In this document: one piece after another, positions 2,155-16,179 of the stretch | Numbering within the stretch: the stretch's first letter is position 1 | Layout of the letters: every line of letters starts with the position of its first letter | From: a virus | DNA length: 20,319 nt | Direction: 5' to 3' (one strand) | Virus record (IMG/VR): IMGVR_UViG_3300000227_000035 | Coordinates: 1 to 20,319 of that record | Position numbers and translations under genes: made by a program | The notes under the pieces: model-generated | Told to the model about the DNA's origin: nothing | The model's database searches: none | What the model saw: only the letters and a program-made list of their open reading frames with translations

Positions 2155-4686
2155 ATGAGTTTGTTTTCTCTGAATCAAATGGAAGAAAATTGTTTGAAAT
2201 GTGGATTATATAAAAATTGCAAGTCATCCAAAATGAATCCATTTGGTTTGGGGAAAACCAAAACTCTTCTTCTGGGAGAAGCTCCCGGTAAAACAGAGGA
2301 TGAACAAGGAAGACAATTTGTTGGGAAATCTGGTCAAGTTCTTCAAGAACAAATTGCTGCAAACAAATTGGACTTCAATTCAGATTTCTGGAGATTTAAC
2401 GCTGTTAATTGCTGGCCAAATGTTTCGCAAAAAAGATCAAGAACACCAACCGCAAAAGAAGTTAAATTTTGTCATCCTCTTGTTGAAGAAACTATTCAAA
2501 AACTGTCCCCAAAATTCATTATTCCTATTGGAAGCACAGCACTAGATACACTGTTTTTTACTGACTTTGAGAAAATAGCAATATCTATTGTTCATGGTAA
2601 GATCATTCCAGATCAAAAATATAATTGTTGGATAATGCCGGTATTTCATCCAAGTTATGTTATGTGCGATGAATTTAATTATAATTTGAAATCTGTATAT
2701 TCAAGAGATATGCAAAGAGCCTGTTCTTGGATAAAGAAAAAGAAGGAAGTTCCAAGGTATGATTTGAAGTTTGACCTTATTACAGATTTTCCAAGTATTA
2801 TCCAATTACTTAAACAAATAGCCAGAGAGAAACAAACTGTTTATTTCGATTATGAAACTACTGGATTAAAACCTTTTAGACCTGGGCACAAAATAGTTTG
2901 CGTATCCATGTCTGTAAATGGGAAAACCTTTGCTTTTCCTTTTCAATATCAATCTGTTTTCAGCTTTGAGGAACAGGAACAAATTAGAAAACTTCTGGCA
3001 AGAATCTTTACTGTATGTCCCCTTGAAGCACACAATATCCAATTTGAAGACAGTTGGACAAAGCACATCATTGGTGTCGAACCAAAACGGTGGCGATTTG
3101 ATACCATGATTGCGGCACACATTTTGGACAATCGAAGTGGTGTTGCTGGTCTGAAGATGCAGATCTATCTTAACTTTGGGATTAGACCCTATGATAGAAA
3201 TGTGAATTCATTTCTTCAAAGTAATGATCCTAGTGGATTCAATAGTGTGGAAAAGTTTCCATTGATGGAATTGCTTGAATATTGTGCAAAGGATTCTGGG
3301 TATGGAAGTATAATTTCCTCTATCCAAAAAAAGGAATTAAAAGAAAATGATTTAGTTTTCCCATACAAACTATTCCATGATGGAACATTGGTTTTGTCCG
3401 AAATGTATGAAAACGGAATTTGTATTGATGAAAAGCACTTTGATGAACAAGATAAAATGATTTCTGAGCAGATTCTTCAAATTGAGAAAGAACTTCTCTT
3501 ATCCAAAGAAAATATGAAATACAAAAAATTATTTGGAAAAGATATAAACTTGGACTCAGGAAAGGAAATAGGGGAGTTATTATTCAAAGTATTGAAACTA
3601 AAACCAACCTATACAAACAAAGGAAATCTGTCTGTAGATAAAAACACCTTATCTGATATAAACATTCCTTTTGTTACGAAACTTCTTGAACGAAGAAAAC
3701 TCGAAAAAGTACGTGGGACATATCTTGCACAATTTAAAAGAGAAATATACAACAATTCTGTTCATCCAATATTTTCAATTGGAAGTGTTTCCACATATCG
3801 ATCTTCATCTTCAAATCCCAATCTGCAAAATATTCCGGTTAGGGATGACCTGATTAAGCCAATTATTAGAAAAGGCATCAAACCTTCACCTGGAAATGTT
3901 TTGTTCCTATTTGACTTCTCAGGTGCTGAAGTAAGAACATCTGCTTGTTATAACCAAGACGCAATTATGATAAACTATATCAATGACCCAACGACAGACA
4001 TGCACCGTGATGCAGCGTCAAATATTTGGGCACTTCCAAAAGAAGAAATCACAAAGGAAATCCGTTTCTATGCAAAGAATATGTGGGTATTTGCACAATT
4101 TTACGGATCATATTGGGCGGCATGTGGAGAAAATCTTTGGAAAACCTGTATTGAGACATTGAATCTAAGAACAAAATCAGAGATACCTTTGATAGAACAT
4201 CTCAAGACACGAAATATTCTGTCCAAAAATGATTTCCTTGAACATTGTAAATTAGTTGAGGATAAGTTTTGGAATGAACAGTTTAAAGGATATTCACAAT
4301 GGAAGAAAGATATAAATTCAGAATATCAAAGAAATGGATTTATCAGAACATTTTTTGGATTTAAACTTCAAGGATACATGGATCGAAAACAAGTCTGTAA
4401 TTATCCAATACAAGGACACTCATTTCATATTTTATTATGGATTGCAATTCAGTTAAGCAAGTTCATCAAAACAAATAACCTTCGTGCCAAAATGGTCTTG
4501 GAAATTCACGATGAAATTGTATTTGATATTCCTGAACAAGAGGTGAAAACCATTGCTGATGAAGTGAATAGACTCATACACGAGGAACTGCCTAAATTTG
4601 AATGGGCTTTAGTCCCATTTGAAGTGGAATTTAGTATCACTCCCGTAAATGGTTCTTGGCATGATAAAAAGGACTGGAAGCCATGA
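2155..4686 (+). CDS. Family A DNA polymerase with N-terminal uracil-DNA glycosylase domain
   Basis: An 843-residue replicative polymerase. Residues 1 to about 200 match family 4-type uracil-DNA glycosylases: an N-terminal CLKC pair (C13, C16) and two later cysteines in VNCWP and KFCHP as likely 4Fe-4S ligands, the GEAPG motif at 41-45 followed by QGRQFVG, and HPSY at 165-168. A 3'-5' proofreading exonuclease follows, with D232 and E234 in FDYETTG, then HNIQFED, then YCAKD. The polymerase domain has motif A DFSGAEVR (D587), motif B from R637 and K641 to FYG, and motif C EIHDE (783-787). All expected catalytic residues are present, so both proofreading and synthesis should work. An AAAGGAG site precedes the ATG. 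The clamp gene upstream and loader downstream complete the holoenzyme. I recall UDG-like N-terminal domains in some large-phage polymerases but cannot verify that here. Confidence 0.93.
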   Translation: MSLFSLNQMEENCLKCGLYKNCKSSKMNPFGLGKTKTLLLGEAPGKTEDEQGRQFVGKSGQVLQEQIAANKLDFNSDFWRFNAVNCWPNVSQKRSRTPTAKEVKFCHPLVEETIQKLSPKFIIPIGSTALDTLFFTDFEKIAISIVHGKIIPDQKYNCWIMPVFHPSYVMCDEFNYNLKSVYSRDMQRACSWIKKKKEVPRYDLKFDLITDFPSIIQLLKQIAREKQTVYFDYETTGLKPFRPGHKIVCVSMSVNGKTFAFPFQYQSVFSFEEQEQIRKLLARIFTVCPLEAHNIQFEDSWTKHIIGVEPKRWRFDTMIAAHILDNRSGVAGLKMQIYLNFGIRPYDRNVNSFLQSNDPSGFNSVEKFPLMELLEYCAKDSGYGSIISSIQKKELKENDLVFPYKLFHDGTLVLSEMYENGICIDEKHFDEQDKMISEQILQIEKELLLSKENMKYKKLFGKDINLDSGKEIGELLFKVLKLKPTYTNKGNLSVDKNTLSDINIPFVTKLLERRKLEKVRGTYLAQFKREIYNNSVHPIFSIGSVSTYRSSSSNPNLQNIPVRDDLIKPIIRKGIKPSPGNVLFLFDFSGAEVRTSACYNQDAIMINYINDPTTDMHRDAASNIWALPKEEITKEIRFYAKNMWVFAQFYGSYWAACGENLWKTCIETLNLRTKSEIPLIEHLKTRNILSKNDFLEHCKLVEDKFWNEQFKGYSQWKKDINSEYQRNGFIRTFFGFKLQGYMDRKQVCNYPIQGHSFHILLWIAIQLSKFIKTNNLRAKMVLEIHDEIVFDIPEQEVKTIADEVNRLIHEELPKFEWALVPFEVEFSITPVNGSWHDKKDWKP

Positions 4687-7473: not shown

Positions 7474-8508
7474 ATGAAAAAAGGGCATGAGAAATCCATG
7501 CCCAATCAAATTGAAAACCTGTCGGAATCAGTGTCCAAAATCCTGATTCCTACAGGTTGTACTTTGCTCAATCTTGCCTGTTCCGATAACCATCTTGGAG
7601 GATATGGTTCAGGCAAGATTGTCAATTTGATTGGAGACTCGAGCAGCGGGAAAACATTATTGGCACTCAGCATGATGGCAGAAATTTGCAAAAGAAAGGA
7701 ATTGGATAATTACGAATTATTTTATGATGATGTTGAAGCTGCTCTTGAAATGGACCTTGCAAAAATGTTCGGTTCAAAAACAGAAAAACGTTTGATTGTA
7801 AAATCCTCAGACACAATTGAAGATGTCTATGGTTTTCTTGTTAGAACAATCCAACAAAAGAAACCTTTCATTTATATTTTGGATAGTCTTGATGCACTTT
7901 CATCCCAAGATGAACACAAAAGATCAGAAGAATATGCCAGGGACAAGGAAATTGGTGGTGGTTTCAAAACAGAAAAGGCCAGAATGATTTCTGAAATGCT
8001 TCGTGTTGTTGTACGAGACATAAAATATTCTGATTCCCTTGTACTAATCATCTCCCAAACACGAGACAATCTTGGATATGGTGCCATATTCACTCCAAGG
8101 ATTCGTAGTGGTGGAAAAGCCTTAAAGTTTTATTGTACACACGAAATATGGCTTGCAGTAGGTAAAAAGATAAAATCAAAGGACAGAGAAATTGGTGCAA
8201 TTGTTCAAGCAAAAATTACAAAGAATAAACTAACAGGAAAATACAGGAAGGTTGAATTTCCTATTTATACGGAATATGGCGTCGATTCCCTTTCTGCCAA
8301 TATTAAATTCCTTGTCGAAAACGGATATTGGACAAAGATAAGTAATAAAATTGAAGCACTTGATTTTGCTTTTACTGGAACTGAATCAACCTTGATCAAT
8401 CATATTGAATCAAAAAATCTTGAGAGGGAATTAGATGAAATCGTTTACAAAGTATGGGGGGAAATCGAGGAGTCTATCAAGATCAAACGAAAACCTAAAT
8501 ACAATTAA
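7474..8508 (+). CDS. RecA/UvsX-like recombinase
   Basis: A 344-residue ATPase of the RecA family that forms filaments on ssDNA and pairs homologous strands. Walker A is GDSSSGKT (residues 54-61), the catalytic Glu region reads YDDVEAALE, Walker B is YILDSLDAL, and the following SQTRDNLGYG plus RIRSGGKALKFYC match RecA loops and the ATP-cap region. It lacks the long C-terminal domain of bacterial RecA and is closer in size to T4 UvsX (391) or phage RecA-like proteins. ATG 7474 follows GGAAG by about 10 bases; ATG 7498 is an alternative start. It lies with SSB, nuclease and resolvase genes in one operon. Confidence 0.88.
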   Translation: MKKGHEKSMPNQIENLSESVSKILIPTGCTLLNLACSDNHLGGYGSGKIVNLIGDSSSGKTLLALSMMAEICKRKELDNYELFYDDVEAALEMDLAKMFGSKTEKRLIVKSSDTIEDVYGFLVRTIQQKKPFIYILDSLDALSSQDEHKRSEEYARDKEIGGGFKTEKARMISEMLRVVVRDIKYSDSLVLIISQTRDNLGYGAIFTPRIRSGGKALKFYCTHEIWLAVGKKIKSKDREIGAIVQAKITKNKLTGKYRKVEFPIYTEYGVDSLSANIKFLVENGYWTKISNKIEALDFAFTGTESTLINHIESKNLERELDEIVYKVWGEIEESIKIKRKPKYN

Positions 8509-9388
8509 ATACATAATATTAGACATGAACAATTTATGCCATATTGCACATTATTCAATGGGACATTTGGAAAATGATGATGATAAAAGGACCGGGGTTA
8601 TTTTTGGTGTTTTCAAACAATTATTAAGCCTTTTTAAAAAGTTCAAATCCAATAATTTTATTTTGTGCTGGGATTCCAGATTAAGCTATAGAAAACAGAT
8701 TTTTCCAGAATACAAAGCACAACGAAAGAAAAATATTACGCCGGAACAAGAAAAAGAAAGGAAATATCTTTATGATCAAATATCTCAGCTTCGATCAGAA
8801 ATCATGCCCGAAGTTGGGTTTAAAAATAATTTTATTAAAACTGGCTATGAAGCTGATGATCTTATCGCAAAGTTTATTATTGATTATAGGAATGAACCTG
8901 ATTCCAATTTTTTGATTATTAGTACAGATCAGGATTTATTCCAAATTCTTTCAAAAAATGTGCGAATTTACAACGTAATAAAAAAGGAAATGATTACAGA
9001 AGAATGGTTTATGGAAAAGTGGGAAGGGCTTTTGCCGATTAATTTTCGATCCATTAAAAGTATTGCTGGGTGTAGTTCAGACAATATTCCACCAATTGAA
9101 AAAGGTATTGGAGAAAAAACTGCTTTGAAATATGTTCTTGGAAAATGTGATGAGTTTTTAATCAAAAAGATTAAAAACTGTAGTGAAGTAAGAGAGAGAA
9201 ACTTCAAACTTGTTTCTCTCCCATTCAACAATAAGAAAAATCCTTTACCTATTTTGGACTTAGCTGAAAATAATTTCAGGATTAAAATGTTTCAAAAATG
9301 GTTTAATCTGCTTGGATTTGATTATTTCATAAAAAATTTTAATGAATGGGAGAAATTTATTGGACATGGTATCAGTTGTTCAGGATAG
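8435..9388 (+). CDS. 5'-3' exonuclease / flap endonuclease (FEN-like)
   Basis: A 317-residue enzyme expected to remove RNA primers and 5' flaps; the polymerase here lacks a 5' nuclease domain, so this supplies the activity. Motifs in order: IILDMNNLCH (first metal Asp), CWDSRLSYRKQIFPEYKAQR, TGYEADDLIA, ISTDQDLFQIL, and IAGCSSDNIPPIEKGIGEKT, which is the helix-hairpin-helix. The usual GD before SDN reads GCSSDN. The ATG at 8435 lies in the recombinase gene, giving a 74-base overlap and about 24 residues ahead of the first strand; GAGAGGGA lies upstream of it. The only later ATG (8525) would delete the first catalytic Asp, so 8435 is kept, although a non-standard start between them is possible. 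Confidence 0.88.
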   Translation: MKSFTKYGGKSRSLSRSNENLNTIKYIILDMNNLCHIAHYSMGHLENDDDKRTGVIFGVFKQLLSLFKKFKSNNFILCWDSRLSYRKQIFPEYKAQRKKNITPEQEKERKYLYDQISQLRSEIMPEVGFKNNFIKTGYEADDLIAKFIIDYRNEPDSNFLIISTDQDLFQILSKNVRIYNVIKKEMITEEWFMEKWEGLLPINFRSIKSIAGCSSDNIPPIEKGIGEKTALKYVLGKCDEFLIKKIKNCSEVRERNFKLVSLPFNNKKNPLPILDLAENNFRIKMFQKWFNLLGFDYFIKNFNEWEKFIGHGISCSG

Positions 9389-9563
9389 TGTTTTTGGGTA
9401 TGCTGATAAGTTAATTCTTGGAAGCATCTTTTTTGATTATGTTTTGCATATTTGTCAACAAGGAGCACATCCAGGATTTATACATAATGCTATGCTCATA
9501 AGTACGTATGAAGAGTATGAACCCATAGGGGAGGTCTTTTTCAATGAAAACTTCCTCTGCTAA
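9366..9563 (+). CDS. Small protein of unknown function
   Basis: A 65-residue frame between the flap nuclease and the resolvase, overlapping the former by 23 bases and the latter by 20 bases. The sequence (MVSVVQDSVFGYADKLILG... with a C-terminal acidic stretch EEYEPIGEVFF) is not recognised. It could be a small helical protein. The start is uncertain: ATG 9342 is in frame but has no ribosome binding site, while ATG 9366 has GGGAGA 13 bases upstream. It is kept because it fills an otherwise unexplained 150-base gap in a densely packed operon. Confidence 0.5.
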   Translation: MVSVVQDSVFGYADKLILGSIFFDYVLHICQQGAHPGFIHNAMLISTYEEYEPIGEVFFNENFLC

Positions 9564-9933
9564 AGCAAAAGGTCGAAGAGGCCAAGATTGGGTTGCTGAA
9601 AAAATAGGGAAATTATTAAATCTTAAAGTTGGACACGATGAAATGGTTTCCCCAAGAGAGATGGGACAAAACGGAACAGATATAAGGCTTGTAGGTGAAG
9701 CCTTAACAAGATTTCCCTATTCTGTAGAAGTTAAAAATCAAGAAAAATGGAATTTGGTTCAATGGATAAAACAAGCAAAGAAAAATGTTGTTAAAGACAC
9801 AAATTGGCTGCTTTTTTTTAAAAAGAATAGACATGAAATGATTGTGGCCATGGATGCAGAACATTTTTTTACTATCATGTCGAGGTTGTATAATGTTGAA
9901 CAAAATAAAGATAGAAAACTTCCAAAGCCATGA
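9544..9933 (+). CDS. PD-(D/E)XK nuclease, Holliday-junction-resolvase-like
   Basis: A 129-residue protein with the layout of archaeal Hjc-type and related phage nucleases: GRRGQDWVAEKI near the N-terminus with E19, then GQNGTDIRL with D46, then YSVEVKNQ with E62 and K64 as the ExK pair, then a helix (WNLVQWIKQAKKN) and strand (TNWLLFFKKN). D46, E62 and K64 would bind the metal. GGGGAGG lies upstream of the ATG. The operon position among recombinase, flap nuclease and Rad50-like genes supports junction or branched-DNA cleavage, but VRR-NUC-like or other endonuclease specificity cannot be excluded. The 3' end overlaps the next gene by 41 bases. Confidence 0.75.
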   Translation: MKTSSAKAKGRRGQDWVAEKIGKLLNLKVGHDEMVSPREMGQNGTDIRLVGEALTRFPYSVEVKNQEKWNLVQWIKQAKKNVVKDTNWLLFFKKNRHEMIVAMDAEHFFTIMSRLYNVEQNKDRKLPKP

Positions 9934-10993
9934 GAATACAGAAATTGATTTAAGTTCAGGGGTAAATATCATTCACGGCTTATCACAAGCCGGTAAGACA
10001 GCCATATTTAGAGCCTTAAATTGGGTATTCTTCAACAGACCTTCTGGGTTTCACTTCCATTCCTCTTTTGCCACGAAGCCTTATACCAAAGTTAGTCTAC
10101 TTTTTGATAATGCAAGAATATCTTTTCAGAAAACAGAGAAAACAGCTACATATTTTCTTGAAACAAAAGATGGATATAAAGAATTTTCTGTTGTAGGCAC
10201 ATCAGTTCCCGAAGAGATTCAAAGAGTTTTAAATATTTCTGAAATTAATATTGCAAATCAATTGGACAATCCTTTCTTTATTTTAAATTCACCTGGAGAG
10301 ATTGGACGAATTTTCAATTCAATAACAAATTCAGAAAAAGCTGATGAATTTGTGAGCACATTAACGTCTTTTATTAATAGAAGAAAAACTTACATTTCAA
10401 CACTTGAAACGCAAGCAAATGAACTGCAACAACAAGTTGATGCTATTGCTAAGATTGAAAAGTTTGATAAAGATTTCAAGAGATATTCTTTTTTGCAGGA
10501 AAAAGAATATTCATTAAATAATGATATCCAAAAAATAAAAGAAAAAATGAAACTTTTGGATAAAAAACAGAAATTTATTCTACGAATTGATGTGCAATTA
10601 TTGGACACAATGGTTCAAAGTCTTTCAAGAATTGAGTCACAAGTCACTTCGAATCTGAATAAAATAAATCATTTGAAAAGTCTATTTGATCGTTTGCAAA
10701 AAGCGCAACAAAACACAACCATGTTCCAGAATAAATTAAACAAAATGGGACATGTAGTAAAATTATATGAAGATCAAATTGAGATGTTATCCAAAATAAA
10801 TATGGAATTGAAACAAAAAACAGAACTAATACGTGATTTGAATTTGATCATCGATCTAACCAACTCTATTGATGATAAGCATATTAGTTTGAAAAAATTA
10901 AAACATGAATATCAAAAAGAATTATCAACAACTGGAATCTGTCCTTTTTGTTTTTCAAAAATAAATCAAAAAACTTTGCAGGAGAATCTATGA
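9893..10993 (+). CDS. N-terminal half of a Rad50/SbcC-like ATPase, ending at the zinc hook
   Basis: A 366-residue protein carrying only the first ATPase lobe of a Rad50/SbcC/gp46 protein. It starts with IKIENFQSHENTEIDL, has Walker A GLSQAGKT (residues 29-36) and a Q-loop-like NQLDNPFFIL, then a long coiled coil (about 160-345). It closes with a zinc-hook motif CPFC (350-353) only 13 residues before the stop. Walker B, signature and H-loop are absent here and occur in the separate gene at 12109-12714. ATG 9893 is chosen because it begins directly at the first strand and has GAGG about 9 bases upstream. Its stop overlaps the nuclease start as ATGA. The intact Walker A and hook argue against a decayed fragment. 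Confidence 0.88.
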   Translation: MLNKIKIENFQSHENTEIDLSSGVNIIHGLSQAGKTAIFRALNWVFFNRPSGFHFHSSFATKPYTKVSLLFDNARISFQKTEKTATYFLETKDGYKEFSVVGTSVPEEIQRVLNISEINIANQLDNPFFILNSPGEIGRIFNSITNSEKADEFVSTLTSFINRRKTYISTLETQANELQQQVDAIAKIEKFDKDFKRYSFLQEKEYSLNNDIQKIKEKMKLLDKKQKFILRIDVQLLDTMVQSLSRIESQVTSNLNKINHLKSLFDRLQKAQQNTTMFQNKLNKMGHVVKLYEDQIEMLSKINMELKQKTELIRDLNLIIDLTNSIDDKHISLKKLKHEYQKELSTTGICPFCFSKINQKTLQENL

Positions 10994-11889
10994 AACTTGT
11001 TCTTGTAAGTGATTTTCACTTATTATCTAAACGTCCAATTGGAAGAGTGGACCAAATTTTATCGACACAATGGGATAAACTTCGTTTTATTCTTGAAACT
11101 GCACAAAATTTAAGTAAGATTGTGATACAGGCAGGGGACTTGTTTGATAAACCAAGAGATTGGTCCGTGTTGGATAAATTCATTTCAATTAAAAATGAAT
11201 ATCCTGATGTTAAATTTTATTCTATTTATGGACAACACGATCTTTATTTTCGAGAATTTAATGCAGTTTGTAACATGTCTATTTTGGAAAAACTTAATAT
11301 TATCAAAATTCTTTCAAGGAAAAGGAAATTATTATATAGATTTCAGATAGTTGGATGTTCATTTGGTGAAACAAAAATACCTTACTTTGACGAAAGACTT
11401 GAAACTTTATTTGTAGTTCATGCTCCGATAACAAATTCTAATATAAATATAGAACATAGTTCAGCAGAATTATTCCTAAAAAAACATCCAAAATTTAAAT
11501 ATATCTTATGTGGAGACATACACATTCCCTTTTTGTTACAAAATAAGAAACAAATAATTATGAACACTGGTTGCATTGTTCGACACACAAGAGATGAAAT
11601 CAATAAAACTTACAAACCATTTTTTTACATATTGGATACAGATAAAGGAAATGTGTCCATAAAAAATATTCCTTGTTTAGACTATGCAGATGCTTTCCTT
11701 TCAAGGAAAGAAGAATCTTCTATTACACTCAATCAATTTTTGGATGATCTCATTGAAAAACAAACACAATCAACAAATGTGCTGTCCAATATAATGCAAT
11801 TTTTGGCTACTGATAAAACAACATCGATTGAAGCCAAGGCAGTAATTCATAAATTATTGAACGATCAATCTATAGAGGTGACAGAATGA
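10990..11889 (+). CDS. Mre11/SbcD-like nuclease (gp47 type)
   Basis: A 299-residue metallophosphoesterase, partner of the Rad50-like ATPase in processing DNA ends and hairpins. Motifs: VSDFH (D8, H10), AGDLFD (D50, D53), GQHD (81-84) where GNHD is usual, VVHAP (H144), and CGDIH (G175-H178) where GHxH is usual. The N-to-Q and H-to-D changes fall on expected metal or phosphate contacts; related phage enzymes may share the GDIH form, so activity is likely but not certain. The C-terminal part (about 220-299) should be the capping and ATPase-binding region. AGGAG lies 6 bases before ATG 10990. ATGA overlaps join it to genes on both sides. Confidence 0.88.
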   Translation: MKLVLVSDFHLLSKRPIGRVDQILSTQWDKLRFILETAQNLSKIVIQAGDLFDKPRDWSVLDKFISIKNEYPDVKFYSIYGQHDLYFREFNAVCNMSILEKLNIIKILSRKRKLLYRFQIVGCSFGETKIPYFDERLETLFVVHAPITNSNINIEHSSAELFLKKHPKFKYILCGDIHIPFLLQNKKQIIMNTGCIVRHTRDEINKTYKPFFYILDTDKGNVSIKNIPCLDYADAFLSRKEESSITLNQFLDDLIEKQTQSTNVLSNIMQFLATDKTTSIEAKAVIHKLLNDQSIEVTE

Positions 11890-12131
11890 GTGAAAAGCTC
11901 AATAAAATTAAACAGCAAATTGATGATCTAAAAACAAAGATTGCTATCGAAATCAATGAGAGCAACCGTTTGATTTCAGAATTAAAAGAAATTGTCCAAT
12001 TTGATAAACTCATTGAAATACCAGCAATATTAAGTTCTTTAGAAAAAGAAAGAGAAAAACTCTTGAAAAAGAAAAGTGAAATTGAATCCAAATTGGAGGA
12101 ACTACTAAATGGATATTCTTCAAGAGTATGA
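11886..12131 (+). CDS. Short coiled-coil protein between nuclease and ATPase C-half
   Basis: An 81-residue protein that is nearly all heptad-like helix (KLNKIKQQIDDLKTKIAIEI, then ISSLEKEREKLLKKK-type repeats). Its start overlaps the nuclease stop as ATGA, and its end overlaps the next gene by 23 bases in another phase. It has no ATPase or metal motif. By position it could provide part of the descending coiled coil that is missing between the zinc hook of the N-half and the short coil of the C-half, making a three-chain Rad50. That is inference; it could also be an unrelated accessory protein. Confidence 0.7.
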   Translation: MSEKLNKIKQQIDDLKTKIAIEINESNRLISELKEIVQFDKLIEIPAILSSLEKEREKLLKKKSEIESKLEELLNGYSSRV

Positions 12132-12714
12132 GAAAATAAAGATCAAAAAATCAATTTTAATGAACAATCTCCAATCAAAAAGTGCTATAATTGAAGCAGA
12201 AACAAAGAGAATTGATGTGCTCAATGAAGCTCGTTTGATCATTTCTGAAATTTCAAAGCAAACGCAAATATTACTTAAAAACAGGATTGAAGAGCTTGTC
12301 ACCAACTGTTTACAAGCTGTGTTTCATAACAGAGATTTTCAGTTTAAACTAAATTTTCAAATCAAACGAAATAAAATGGAGTGTGTTCCAACAATTATTG
12401 AAAATGATCGGGAACTTTCTCCTGCAAATGAAATGGGAGGCGGCGTCTTAGACATCATTGCTTTTGCCATGAGAATCGTTCTGTGGAGTATGCAGTATAA
12501 CAAAACACGGGCGTTTTTCATGTTGGATGAACCCCTTCGATTTTGTGGTAATTTAATTAGTAATGCCTGTGAAATGATTAAACAAATTTCAGATGGTCTT
12601 GGAATGCAAATTTTAATTATAACACATTCAGACGAATTGATTGATATTGCAGATAAATCATGGCATATAAAATATGTTGATGGCAAATCAGAAATTTCTC
12701 TCGACCGTCGCTGA
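12109..12714 (+). CDS. C-terminal half of a Rad50/SbcC-like ATPase
   Basis: A 201-residue protein with a short N-terminal coiled coil (about 1-65), then the second ATPase lobe: a signature motif EMGGGVLDIIAFAMRI (from residue 108), Walker B AFFMLDEP (D140, E141), a D-loop region after it, and the H-loop ITHSDEL. It has no Walker A, which is in the gene at 9893-10993, so the two must assemble to form composite ATP sites. GGAGG lies 9 bases before ATG 12109, and TAA is the codon directly before that ATG in frame, so it is independently initiated and not a simple frameshift product. It ends the operon before a structured spacer. Confidence 0.88.
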   Translation: MDILQEYEKIKIKKSILMNNLQSKSAIIEAETKRIDVLNEARLIISEISKQTQILLKNRIEELVTNCLQAVFHNRDFQFKLNFQIKRNKMECVPTIIENDRELSPANEMGGGVLDIIAFAMRIVLWSMQYNKTRAFFMLDEPLRFCGNLISNACEMIKQISDGLGMQILIITHSDELIDIADKSWHIKYVDGKSEISLDRR

Positions 12715-14894: not shown

Positions 14895-15548
14895 ATGACA
14901 ATAGTACTGGATAAATCTCAGTTGCAAATTATTAGACGTGCAACAAACTTGAACAGAGAAAATATTTTAGTACATATTTTTGGTTCAACGATGAAAATAA
15001 CCGCTTCATCAAAACAAAAAGACGTGTCTCTCTTTGCAAAAACACATATTTCTGATTTTATAAACAAAGAATTCCAATTTAGTTTCTCCAATACCTTTAA
15101 CAAAACAAAACGTATTGAATTTGATTTGGACACAATGACGGTCAAAATAGCACATAACACTGTTAAACTTACAGAAGTTCCTCTCCAATATTGGACATGC
15201 TTGGAAGAATCTTATGTAAAAACATGCGTTGCATTGTCTAAAATGAATTTCATAAGATTTATTGTAAGCACGTCCTTGTCCAAAACAAAAGACTCTCTTG
15301 TTTTATTTGATTTTGATAATCCAAATGAAATGTCTCTTGTAGAAAAAGAAAATATAAAAGAATGCACTTCTATTGTGTCCAAAAAAGTTCTGCTTTCTTT
15401 TTCGTCATTGGCCTATATCGTTGACCACATTGACGATCAAACCTTCCTTGTGGGAATGGCGTCACAAAAGGATCATATTGTATTCATGCCTTCAAACTAT
15501 TTAGACCTTGAAACACAATATCTTTATTCAACTTCCTCAAACTTTTGA
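14895..15548 (+). CDS. Unknown protein, possibly clamp-like fold
   Basis: A 217-residue, strand-rich protein with no firm family. The C-terminal segment KKVLLSFSSLAYIVDHIDD followed by a strand pair ending DHIVFMPS resembles the last domain pattern of sliding clamps (F..YLLD, strands, MP), and the total length is near T4 gp45 (228). The N-terminal LDKSQLQIIRRATNL could be the first clamp helix. This is weak, pattern-level similarity. AAAGGA precedes the ATG by about 8 bases. It lies at the head of a nucleotide-metabolism cluster and 11 bases before the methyltransferase gene. Confidence 0.6.
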   Translation: MTIVLDKSQLQIIRRATNLNRENILVHIFGSTMKITASSKQKDVSLFAKTHISDFINKEFQFSFSNTFNKTKRIEFDLDTMTVKIAHNTVKLTEVPLQYWTCLEESYVKTCVALSKMNFIRFIVSTSLSKTKDSLVLFDFDNPNEMSLVEKENIKECTSIVSKKVLLSFSSLAYIVDHIDDQTFLVGMASQKDHIVFMPSNYLDLETQYLYSTSSNF

Positions 15549-15558
15549 AAGAGAACAA

Positions 15559-16179
15559 ATGAAACCATTTAATGAAATAAGAAAAGAAATCAATGGGCAA
15601 ACTTTATTGTCAGAAGTTAATCTCCAAACTCTTTATGACACATGCAAGACTGTAGAGATCTTGGAGGGCGCAGCAGTTGAAGTCGGTGTCTATAAAGGCG
15701 GATCAATTAAGATGATTGCCCAATGCCTTCCTGATAGACCTGTGTATGGTTTTGATACGTTCGAAGGCATTTCTGTTATCACCAAAGAAGATGATGGAAT
15801 TAAACACAAAATTGGAGACTTTGCACAAGATTTTGAGAAAGTAAAAGAGTTTCTACAAACTGAGAAAAACGTAACTTTGGTCAAGGGCAGTTTTTCCAAA
15901 ACACAAACCAGTCTTGTCCAAGAAAAAAAGATTTGTTTGGTCCACATCGATACAGATGCGTATATTCCGGCATTTGAGGCAATGCAATCTTTTTGGACAA
16001 GACTTGTAGTTGGTGGAATAATGCTTGTGCATGATTTTAATTGGACAAATACGCCCGGAATTGCTCTTGCCGTTAATTACTTTCTTGAAAGATTTCGTTC
16101 AGATGTTACGAGTATCAGTCATTGTGAAATTATGAACCCTCCATTTATCTCTTATTACAGAATGGTGAAAAATGCTTAA
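15559..16179 (+). CDS. TylF-type SAM-dependent methyltransferase
   Basis: A 206-residue class I methyltransferase of the TylF/macrocin O-methyltransferase family. Seen: motif I VEVGVYKGGS, VYGFDTFEG, a DF-rich region, LVHIDTDAY, and VVGGIMLVHDFNWT, the typical GG-I-x-x-H/D-D element. Family members are often metal-dependent O-methyltransferases acting on sugars or small molecules; the substrate here is unknown. ATG 15559 is preferred over 15508, which lies inside the previous gene, because AAAGAGA stands just upstream and the fold begins soon after. The stop overlaps the thymidylate-synthase-like start by 8 bases, so the two are co-translated, which is a hint of a nucleotide-linked or base-modification role. 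Confidence 0.75.
   Translation: MKPFNEIRKEINGQTLLSEVNLQTLYDTCKTVEILEGAAVEVGVYKGGSIKMIAQCLPDRPVYGFDTFEGISVITKEDDGIKHKIGDFAQDFEKVKEFLQTEKNVTLVKGSFSKTQTSLVQEKKICLVHIDTDAYIPAFEAMQSFWTRLVVGGIMLVHDFNWTNTPGIALAVNYFLERFRSDVTSISHCEIMNPPFISYYRMVKNA

Follow-up and report, generated by a model that had tools for sequence, protein, structure and literature searches.

A Rad50/SbcC-like ATPase split at its hook into separate genes beside an Mre11-like nuclease in phages and Bacillota

The described systems closest to the genes reported here are archaeal Rad50 (Pyrococcus furiosus, Methanocaldococcus) with its Mre11 partner, bacterial SbcCD (E. coli, B. subtilis) and the phage SbcC/SbcD pairs T4 gp46/gp47 and Twort RncB/RncA. 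They were compared with a locus of the IMG/VR virus record IMGVR_UViG_3300000227_000035, positions 1 to 20,319 (the window, i.e. the whole stretch of 20,319 nucleotides (nt) that was analysed), where the two lobes of a Rad50/SbcC-like ATPase are encoded by separate genes, the N-half and the C-half, together with an Mre11/SbcD-like nuclease gene and a small coiled-coil gene. The archaeal proteins gave the best sequence and fold matches, and share with the locus an N-lobe, a C-lobe, a CxxC hook, a coiled arm and an Mre11-like partner; however, archaeal Rad50 is one natural chain with a mid-chain hook and an LSGGE signature, while three chains and the signature xGGGVxD would take their place here. 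The phage pairs are likewise found in a replication-recombination region and have similar total lengths before and after the hook, but T4 gp46 is one chain of 560 amino acids (aa) with CxxC near residue 288 and Staphylococcus phage Twort RncB one chain of 636 aa with CxxC near 323, and both keep an S-x-G-E signature. Bacterial SbcCD has the same architecture of head, arm, hook and nuclease, in contrast with SbcC being a single chain of about 1000 aa or more.

Fusions of Mre11 with a Rad50-like part have been described from Mimivirus (R555), Bacillus phage 0305phi8-36 and Anaerostipes (PMC3175470), and two such fusion proteins are said there to lack one P-loop segment. By description they resemble one of our relatives, in which the nuclease is fused to a Rad50-like part (L088, see below); a separate C-half or coil gene is not mentioned in the portion of that paper considered. 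PHROGs holds the N-half, C-half and coil of Firmicutes phages as phrog_16465, phrog_15167 and phrog_18563, labelled 'exonuclease', 'ATPase' and unknown, and does not state that they make up one protein; in PHROGs, Pfam, NCBIfam and PADLOC the pieces are present under general names only. No description of a split Rad50/SbcC was found in the full-text literature, a search mostly without subscription journals and preprints, so that an earlier account may exist.

The four-gene locus

All four genes lie on the plus strand, and the gene coordinates and the borders of all parts given in an earlier model-made reading of the sequence (the first-pass annotation) proved correct when the sequence was rechecked. 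The N-half (9893–10993, 366 aa) comprises an N-lobe, an ascending coil and a C-terminal zinc hook; it matched Pfam AAA_23 (2e-15), phrog_16465 (5e-30) and Rad50 N-lobe structures. It carries a Walker A motif, GLSQAGKT (9977–10000), a Q-loop, NQLDNP (10256–10273), and at residues 350–353 the half zinc hook CPFC (10940–10951), 13 residues after which the chain stops, as had been noted. The same holds in relatives: of 125 complete and distinct N-halves, 122 have their end no more than 45 residues from the CxxC. The nuclease gene follows (10990–11889, 299 aa; Pfam Metallophos, 1e-8), having GQHD (11230–11241) in place of GNHD at motif III and GDIH (11512–11523) in place of GHxH at motif V. Next come the gene of an 81-aa coiled-coil protein (11886–12131), proposed to be a separate descending-arm segment, and the C-half (12109–12714, 201 aa), which consists of a coil base and a C-lobe and was matched by phrog_15167 (7e-25) and, below threshold, by Pfam SMC_N over Walker B (5e-5). 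In the C-half the non-canonical C-loop MGGGVLD (12433–12453) stands where LSGGE is expected from the alignment to Rad50, followed by Walker B, FFMLDEP (12514–12534), and the TH of an ITH H-loop (12622–12627). Nuclease and coil genes thus lie between the halves as first described; ATGA overlaps occur at the N-half/nuclease and nuclease/coil junctions, and the third junction is a 23-nt overlap.

Neither half alone makes a complete ATP site, in agreement with the first-pass annotation. Its statement that all motifs are intact across the pair was right for Walker A, Q-loop, Walker B and H-loop and wrong for the signature and for the D-loop, whose Asp is lost. The split itself was seen correctly, but it involves three pieces and not two, the small coil being a universal fourth gene of the set.

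Conservation of the split in viruses and Bacillota

In order to see whether other genomes keep the split, as the first-pass annotation had proposed, a viral-contig scan (80 loci) was followed by searches with profiles built from the window genes and their relatives. Other genomes do keep it. Both halves occurred together in 71 viral loci, the window included and some being the same contig twice, which form 40 clusters at 70% identity, and in none of the 71 were the two lobes found in one chain. A coil homologue was present in 71 of 71, as a separate gene in 70 and within a fusion in one (L088); the gene, one per locus with one exception, is about 77–108 aa long (E 1e-10 to 1e-29). In 70 of the 71 its place is between the two halves, and for 54 of these 70 the gap from its end to the C-half start is no more than 30 nt or the two genes overlap. 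With M for the nuclease and K for the coil, the gene orders were N-M-K-C (45), N-K-C-M (25) and fused (1). All four genes have nonsynonymous rates (dN) well below synonymous rates (dS) against a relative of 51–73% identity, with dS near or at saturation, a sign of purifying selection on each. Since there are 40 such clusters, since 122 of 125 N-halves end at the hook and since dN is below dS in all four genes, the pattern exceeds chance.

The carriers include annotated isolates. Bacillus phage vB_BboS-125 has the set as gp32, gp34 and gp35 plus an unannotated nuclease, and Microcystis phage Mvi-JY20 carries it as well; a 485-kb uncultured phage record has N-half, nuclease and C-half, and Tunturiibacter phage Tunturi_5 has a C-half. 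In Microbacterium phage Magritte about 93 kb of the linear record separate the two halves (L006 284–934 and L007 5001–6053), and no CxxC hook motif is present in the N-half. Between N-half and coil, vB_BboS-125 has an AP2-domain-annotated gene (L005 5407–5979), and Brevibacillus fulvus an open reading frame similar to it (L145 8380–8919).

The first-pass annotation had thought a feature of some phage lineages possible. It does recur in phages, but it is not limited to them: when genome contigs were scanned, 75 loci were found, almost all of them from Bacillota, and since the set is also chromosomal there it is not a phage oddity. More than 50 chromosomal loci have the genes in the order nuclease-N-coil-C, nearly all of them immediately following recA and most with rny on the far side, and pgsA (often with cinA) lies upstream in most recA-linked loci. 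Such sets were found in Tissierella, Peptoniphilus, Aedoeadaptatus, Thermoactinomycetaceae and Caloramator; in Tissierella praeacuta (L138 5997–9352) recA and rny flank the four genes, an arrangement shared by more than 40 other Bacillota loci. The coil gene is separate in nearly all genome loci and the lobes in nearly all genome relatives. Among 398 genomes of the phylum of T. praeacuta, 67 had a match at E <= 1e-14; of the 71 matched places, 67 were in frames shorter than 330 aa, three in frames of 686–702 aa and one in an SMC-sized frame. In the phylum of the window's own genome the window was the sole strong match, the others being weak and mostly in SMC-sized frames. A search of 694 genomes of the two phyla for full-arm relatives in a single chain yielded only SMC-sized matches, a few shorter weak ones and coil-less fusions. 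Among the 398 genomes the Pfam family SbcC_Walker_B (PF13558) was rarer in those with the split set (24 of 66 vs 201 of 332 without it; Fisher p = 0.0004, uncorrected for genome kinship), and it had no match in the window's genome. The split Rad50 observation is thus real and broader than first stated.

A few relatives are fused. L088 has a single chain of 771 aa made up of nuclease, N-half, hook and a tail of 138 aa, the C-half being a separate gene after it; the tail includes a stretch matching the coil profile (E 3e-8, a single sequence in which coiled-coil bias is possible). Three other loci, L197 (3764–5818), L198 (4152–6254, minus strand) and L199 (3083–5170, minus strand), encode nuclease, N-lobe and C-lobe in one chain of 686–702 aa without coil or hook. 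In a FastTree phylogeny of N-lobe plus C-half, rooted on Twort alone so that the deepest branching is unsure, these three are nested within the chromosomal split clade, and because of this placement they look like secondary fusions. By their sequences, they would show that N-lobe, C-lobe and nuclease are parts of one machine. The three fusions adjoin an AddB-like gene, so named from its sequence.

Motifs, predicted folds and arm lengths

Most ATPase motifs are well kept among the relatives: the Walker A G and K in 140 of 141 N-halves, the Q-loop Gln in 138 of 141, the Walker B D and E in 139 of 141 and the H-loop His in 128 of 141. A signature LSGG(E/Q) with a conserved Ser was not found; the clade has xGGGVxD, with GGG and D conserved, and the Ser is not kept in either alignment register. 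Both Cys of the CxxC at the arm tip are invariant in 40 rows (alignment A5), and the site is a predicted zinc site. The nuclease family keeps the Mre11/SbcD motifs D-H, GD, GNHD, H and GHxH, except that GQHD is paired with GDxH in the window and in 35 further aligned loci: the motif III Asn is Gln in 36 of 141 loci, always together with His to Asp at motif V. This paired change suggests a rebuilt nuclease metal site. Both lobes in one polypeptide, as in known Rad50, were found neither in the window nor in any viral relative, and in nearly none of the genome relatives.

The AlphaFold2 model of the C-half had a mean predicted local distance difference test (pLDDT) score of 94, and that of the N-half a pLDDT of 84 and a predicted template modelling score (pTM) of 0.40, the low value being probably due to the long arm, within which the model has a helix break. 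The best fold matches of the C-half were P. furiosus Rad50 9a9j_B (Z 14.2, root-mean-square deviation (rmsd) 3.8, 165 residues aligned) and 1f2u_B (Z 13.3, rmsd 2.7, 143 aligned); those of the N-half were 9a9j_A (Z 13.1, rmsd 7.8, 170 aligned) and 1f2u_A (Z 12.7, rmsd 2.8, 122 aligned), SMC heads scoring equally well. In sequence profile comparisons Rad50 was on top for both halves: the N-half covers residues 1 to about 218 of Rad50, the complementary C-lobe being matched by the C-half. The P. furiosus Rad50 head was itself crystallised as separate N and C chains (PDB 1f2t, 1f2u, 1ii8), by analogy a laboratory precedent of what would be a natural split.

SMC, RecN and RecF proteins, which have a hinge domain or hook-less arms and no nuclease partner, were considered for the pair and ruled out by the CxxC hook, the neighbouring nuclease and the top sequence match to Rad50. 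A defence system was rejected as well: PADLOC gave only generic ATPase matches (LmuB, AriA, mad3, GajA, PtuA) while the nuclease matched nothing there, and the set lies among genes of replication and recombination.

The length of the N-half arm is quantised. From the conserved Asp at the arm base to CxxC, 132 loci fall into classes of 144–150, about 180–204, 248–250, 286–301 and 343–345 residues, with two at 226 and 232, the steps being about 48 residues, and the partner coil has a constant length. Long arms compared with themselves gave peaks at offsets of 47 and 94, i.e. internal repeats of 47–48 residues. The coil protein plus the coil of the C-half makes 149–161 residues in every arm class; in the shortest class the ascending arm has 147 aa vs 149 aa for the two together.

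The window is approximately one whole contig (C105) of an assembly of 338 contigs and 3.64 Mb, and around the set it has a phage-like replication and recombination module. RecA-like, 5'-3' exonuclease and PDDEXK endonuclease genes (7474–9933, plus strand; Pfam RecA 1e-28, 5_3_exonuc_N 8e-29, PDDEXK_15 2e-6) are context outside the complex, and the module also has a clamp-loader-like ATPase and a single 843-aa frame (2155–4686) joining a uracil-DNA-glycosylase-family domain to a family A DNA polymerase (PolA). A gene of a TylF-type methyltransferase (15508–16179) lies within the phage module, and in the frame at 11–970 a C-terminal part of ordinary appearance is preceded by acidic and proline-lysine-rich stretches that are repeated (DTEDEQEL, EPKKRGRKPK).

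Assembly of the complex, alternatives and meaning

The four genes very probably encode a complex of the Mre11-Rad50 type in which three chains join in trans into the Rad50-like subunit. A functional ATPase of several chains, divided at the hook, as the first-pass annotation had suggested, is supported by the relatives that keep the split, by the fusions and by the complementary Rad50 matches, and recurrence in phages and Gram-positive chromosomes looks like that of an old, working alternative design and not of a broken gene. As for assembly, stoichiometry, zinc binding, enzymatic activities and biological role, we infer the following. The N-half would provide the lobe with Walker A and an ascending arm, its chain ending in a CxxC half-hook; the Walker B lobe and the base of the descending arm would come from the C-half, and the segment of that arm missing between hook and C-half from the small coil protein. 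N-lobe and C-lobe would pair into one ATPase head, two heads would sit on a nuclease dimer, and zinc shared by two CxxC chain ends would close or bridge the arms. In phages the complex could act like T4 gp46/gp47, whose role is established and is also stated in the part of PMC3175470 considered, i.e. in end resection for recombination-dependent replication, beside the phage RecA; on Bacillota chromosomes it could serve recA-linked end repair.

Several observations weigh against this reading. The signature Ser and the D-loop Asp are absent from the C-half, and the exchange of Ser for Arg in the yeast Rad50 signature (S1205R) blocks dimerisation and ATP hydrolysis, end tethering being kept (PMC7049730); in the HMMER register an Arg is aligned to the S1205 position in 87 of 141 members. 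The ATP cycle may therefore be different or lost. As the signature Ser is missing, the heads would have to engage through different contacts, or tethering may be more of what the complex does. The window nuclease has GQHD/GDxH changes at two metal-ligand positions. In most members the ascending arm (196–344 aa) is longer than the coil plus C-half coil (149–161 aa), so that a rod with one copy of the coil fits the short class only; in longer arms there would have to be inserted repeats that fold on themselves, more than one copy of the coil, or a different arrangement. Covariation between N-lobe and C-half was uninformative, as the top pairs were dominated by one clade-marking column and the effective number was about 80.

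The arm lengths bear directly on a different role of the coil. The two halves may form the head while the small protein binds the complex as a regulator or loader, the N-half arm folding on itself through its repeats of about 48 aa; this we regard as rather unlikely. The excess arm length, the steps, the internal repeats and the helix break in the window model favour such folding, but the lengths match in the shortest class, L088 has its coil-like segment straight after the hook in the same chain, and the coil gene is never absent from viral loci with both halves. That the halves do not form one ATPase at all, the N-half being a partner of the nuclease and the C-half a regulator or the partner of some different N-lobe protein, is improbable: the non-canonical signature and D-loop of the C-half and the distant halves of Magritte would agree with it, but strict co-occurrence, the chains in which N-lobe and C-lobe are fused, the complementary Rad50 matches and the incomplete ATP site of each half oppose it.

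Two further explanations involve a single chain. Joining by an intron, an intein, a frameshift or trans-splicing has very little probability; overlapping gene ends permit a frameshift between direct neighbours, but a complete nuclease gene separates N and C in 45 of the 71 viral loci, each half begins with a start codon, in every clade the chain end falls at the hook, and no Rfam RNA family reached threshold in the window. A sequencing or assembly error, or the decay of a single-chain SbcC to a pseudogene, has a practically negligible chance. One genome locus (L135) does have a broken N-half, but the recurrence of the split in contigs of viruses, in records of isolated phages and in genomes of Bacillota, together with dN well below dS, contradicts the single-chain relatives and sequencing error that the first-pass annotation had named as what would overturn its view.

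For the three-chain Rad50-like subunit a wider proposal can be made, for which we see an even balance of chances: an ancient second class of Mre11-Rad50, shared by phages and Bacillota recA operons, with a natural three-chain Rad50, the hook at a free chain end, broken and quantised arms, head-to-hook communication without a continuous coiled coil, a changed signature that would mean a different head engagement, and a role as the source of coil-less one-chain derivatives. Within this proposal, as the arms are broken and quantised, communication from head to hook could not depend on a continuous coiled coil.

How hook, arm and head communicate in Rad50 is an open question, usually probed by cutting or mutating one long chain. 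Here natural cuts at the hook and in the arm are maintained in phages and in many Bacillota, and three genomes have lost arm and hook altogether; with chains that are small and separate, an arm segment of 81 aa among them, the arm would become exchangeable in experiments. The split set may also explain the reported Mre11-Rad50 fusions which, as far as that source was covered, seem to be without one ATPase segment. Finally, canonical SbcC often goes undetected in species that carry the recA-linked operon, which points to a way of processing DNA ends not yet described.

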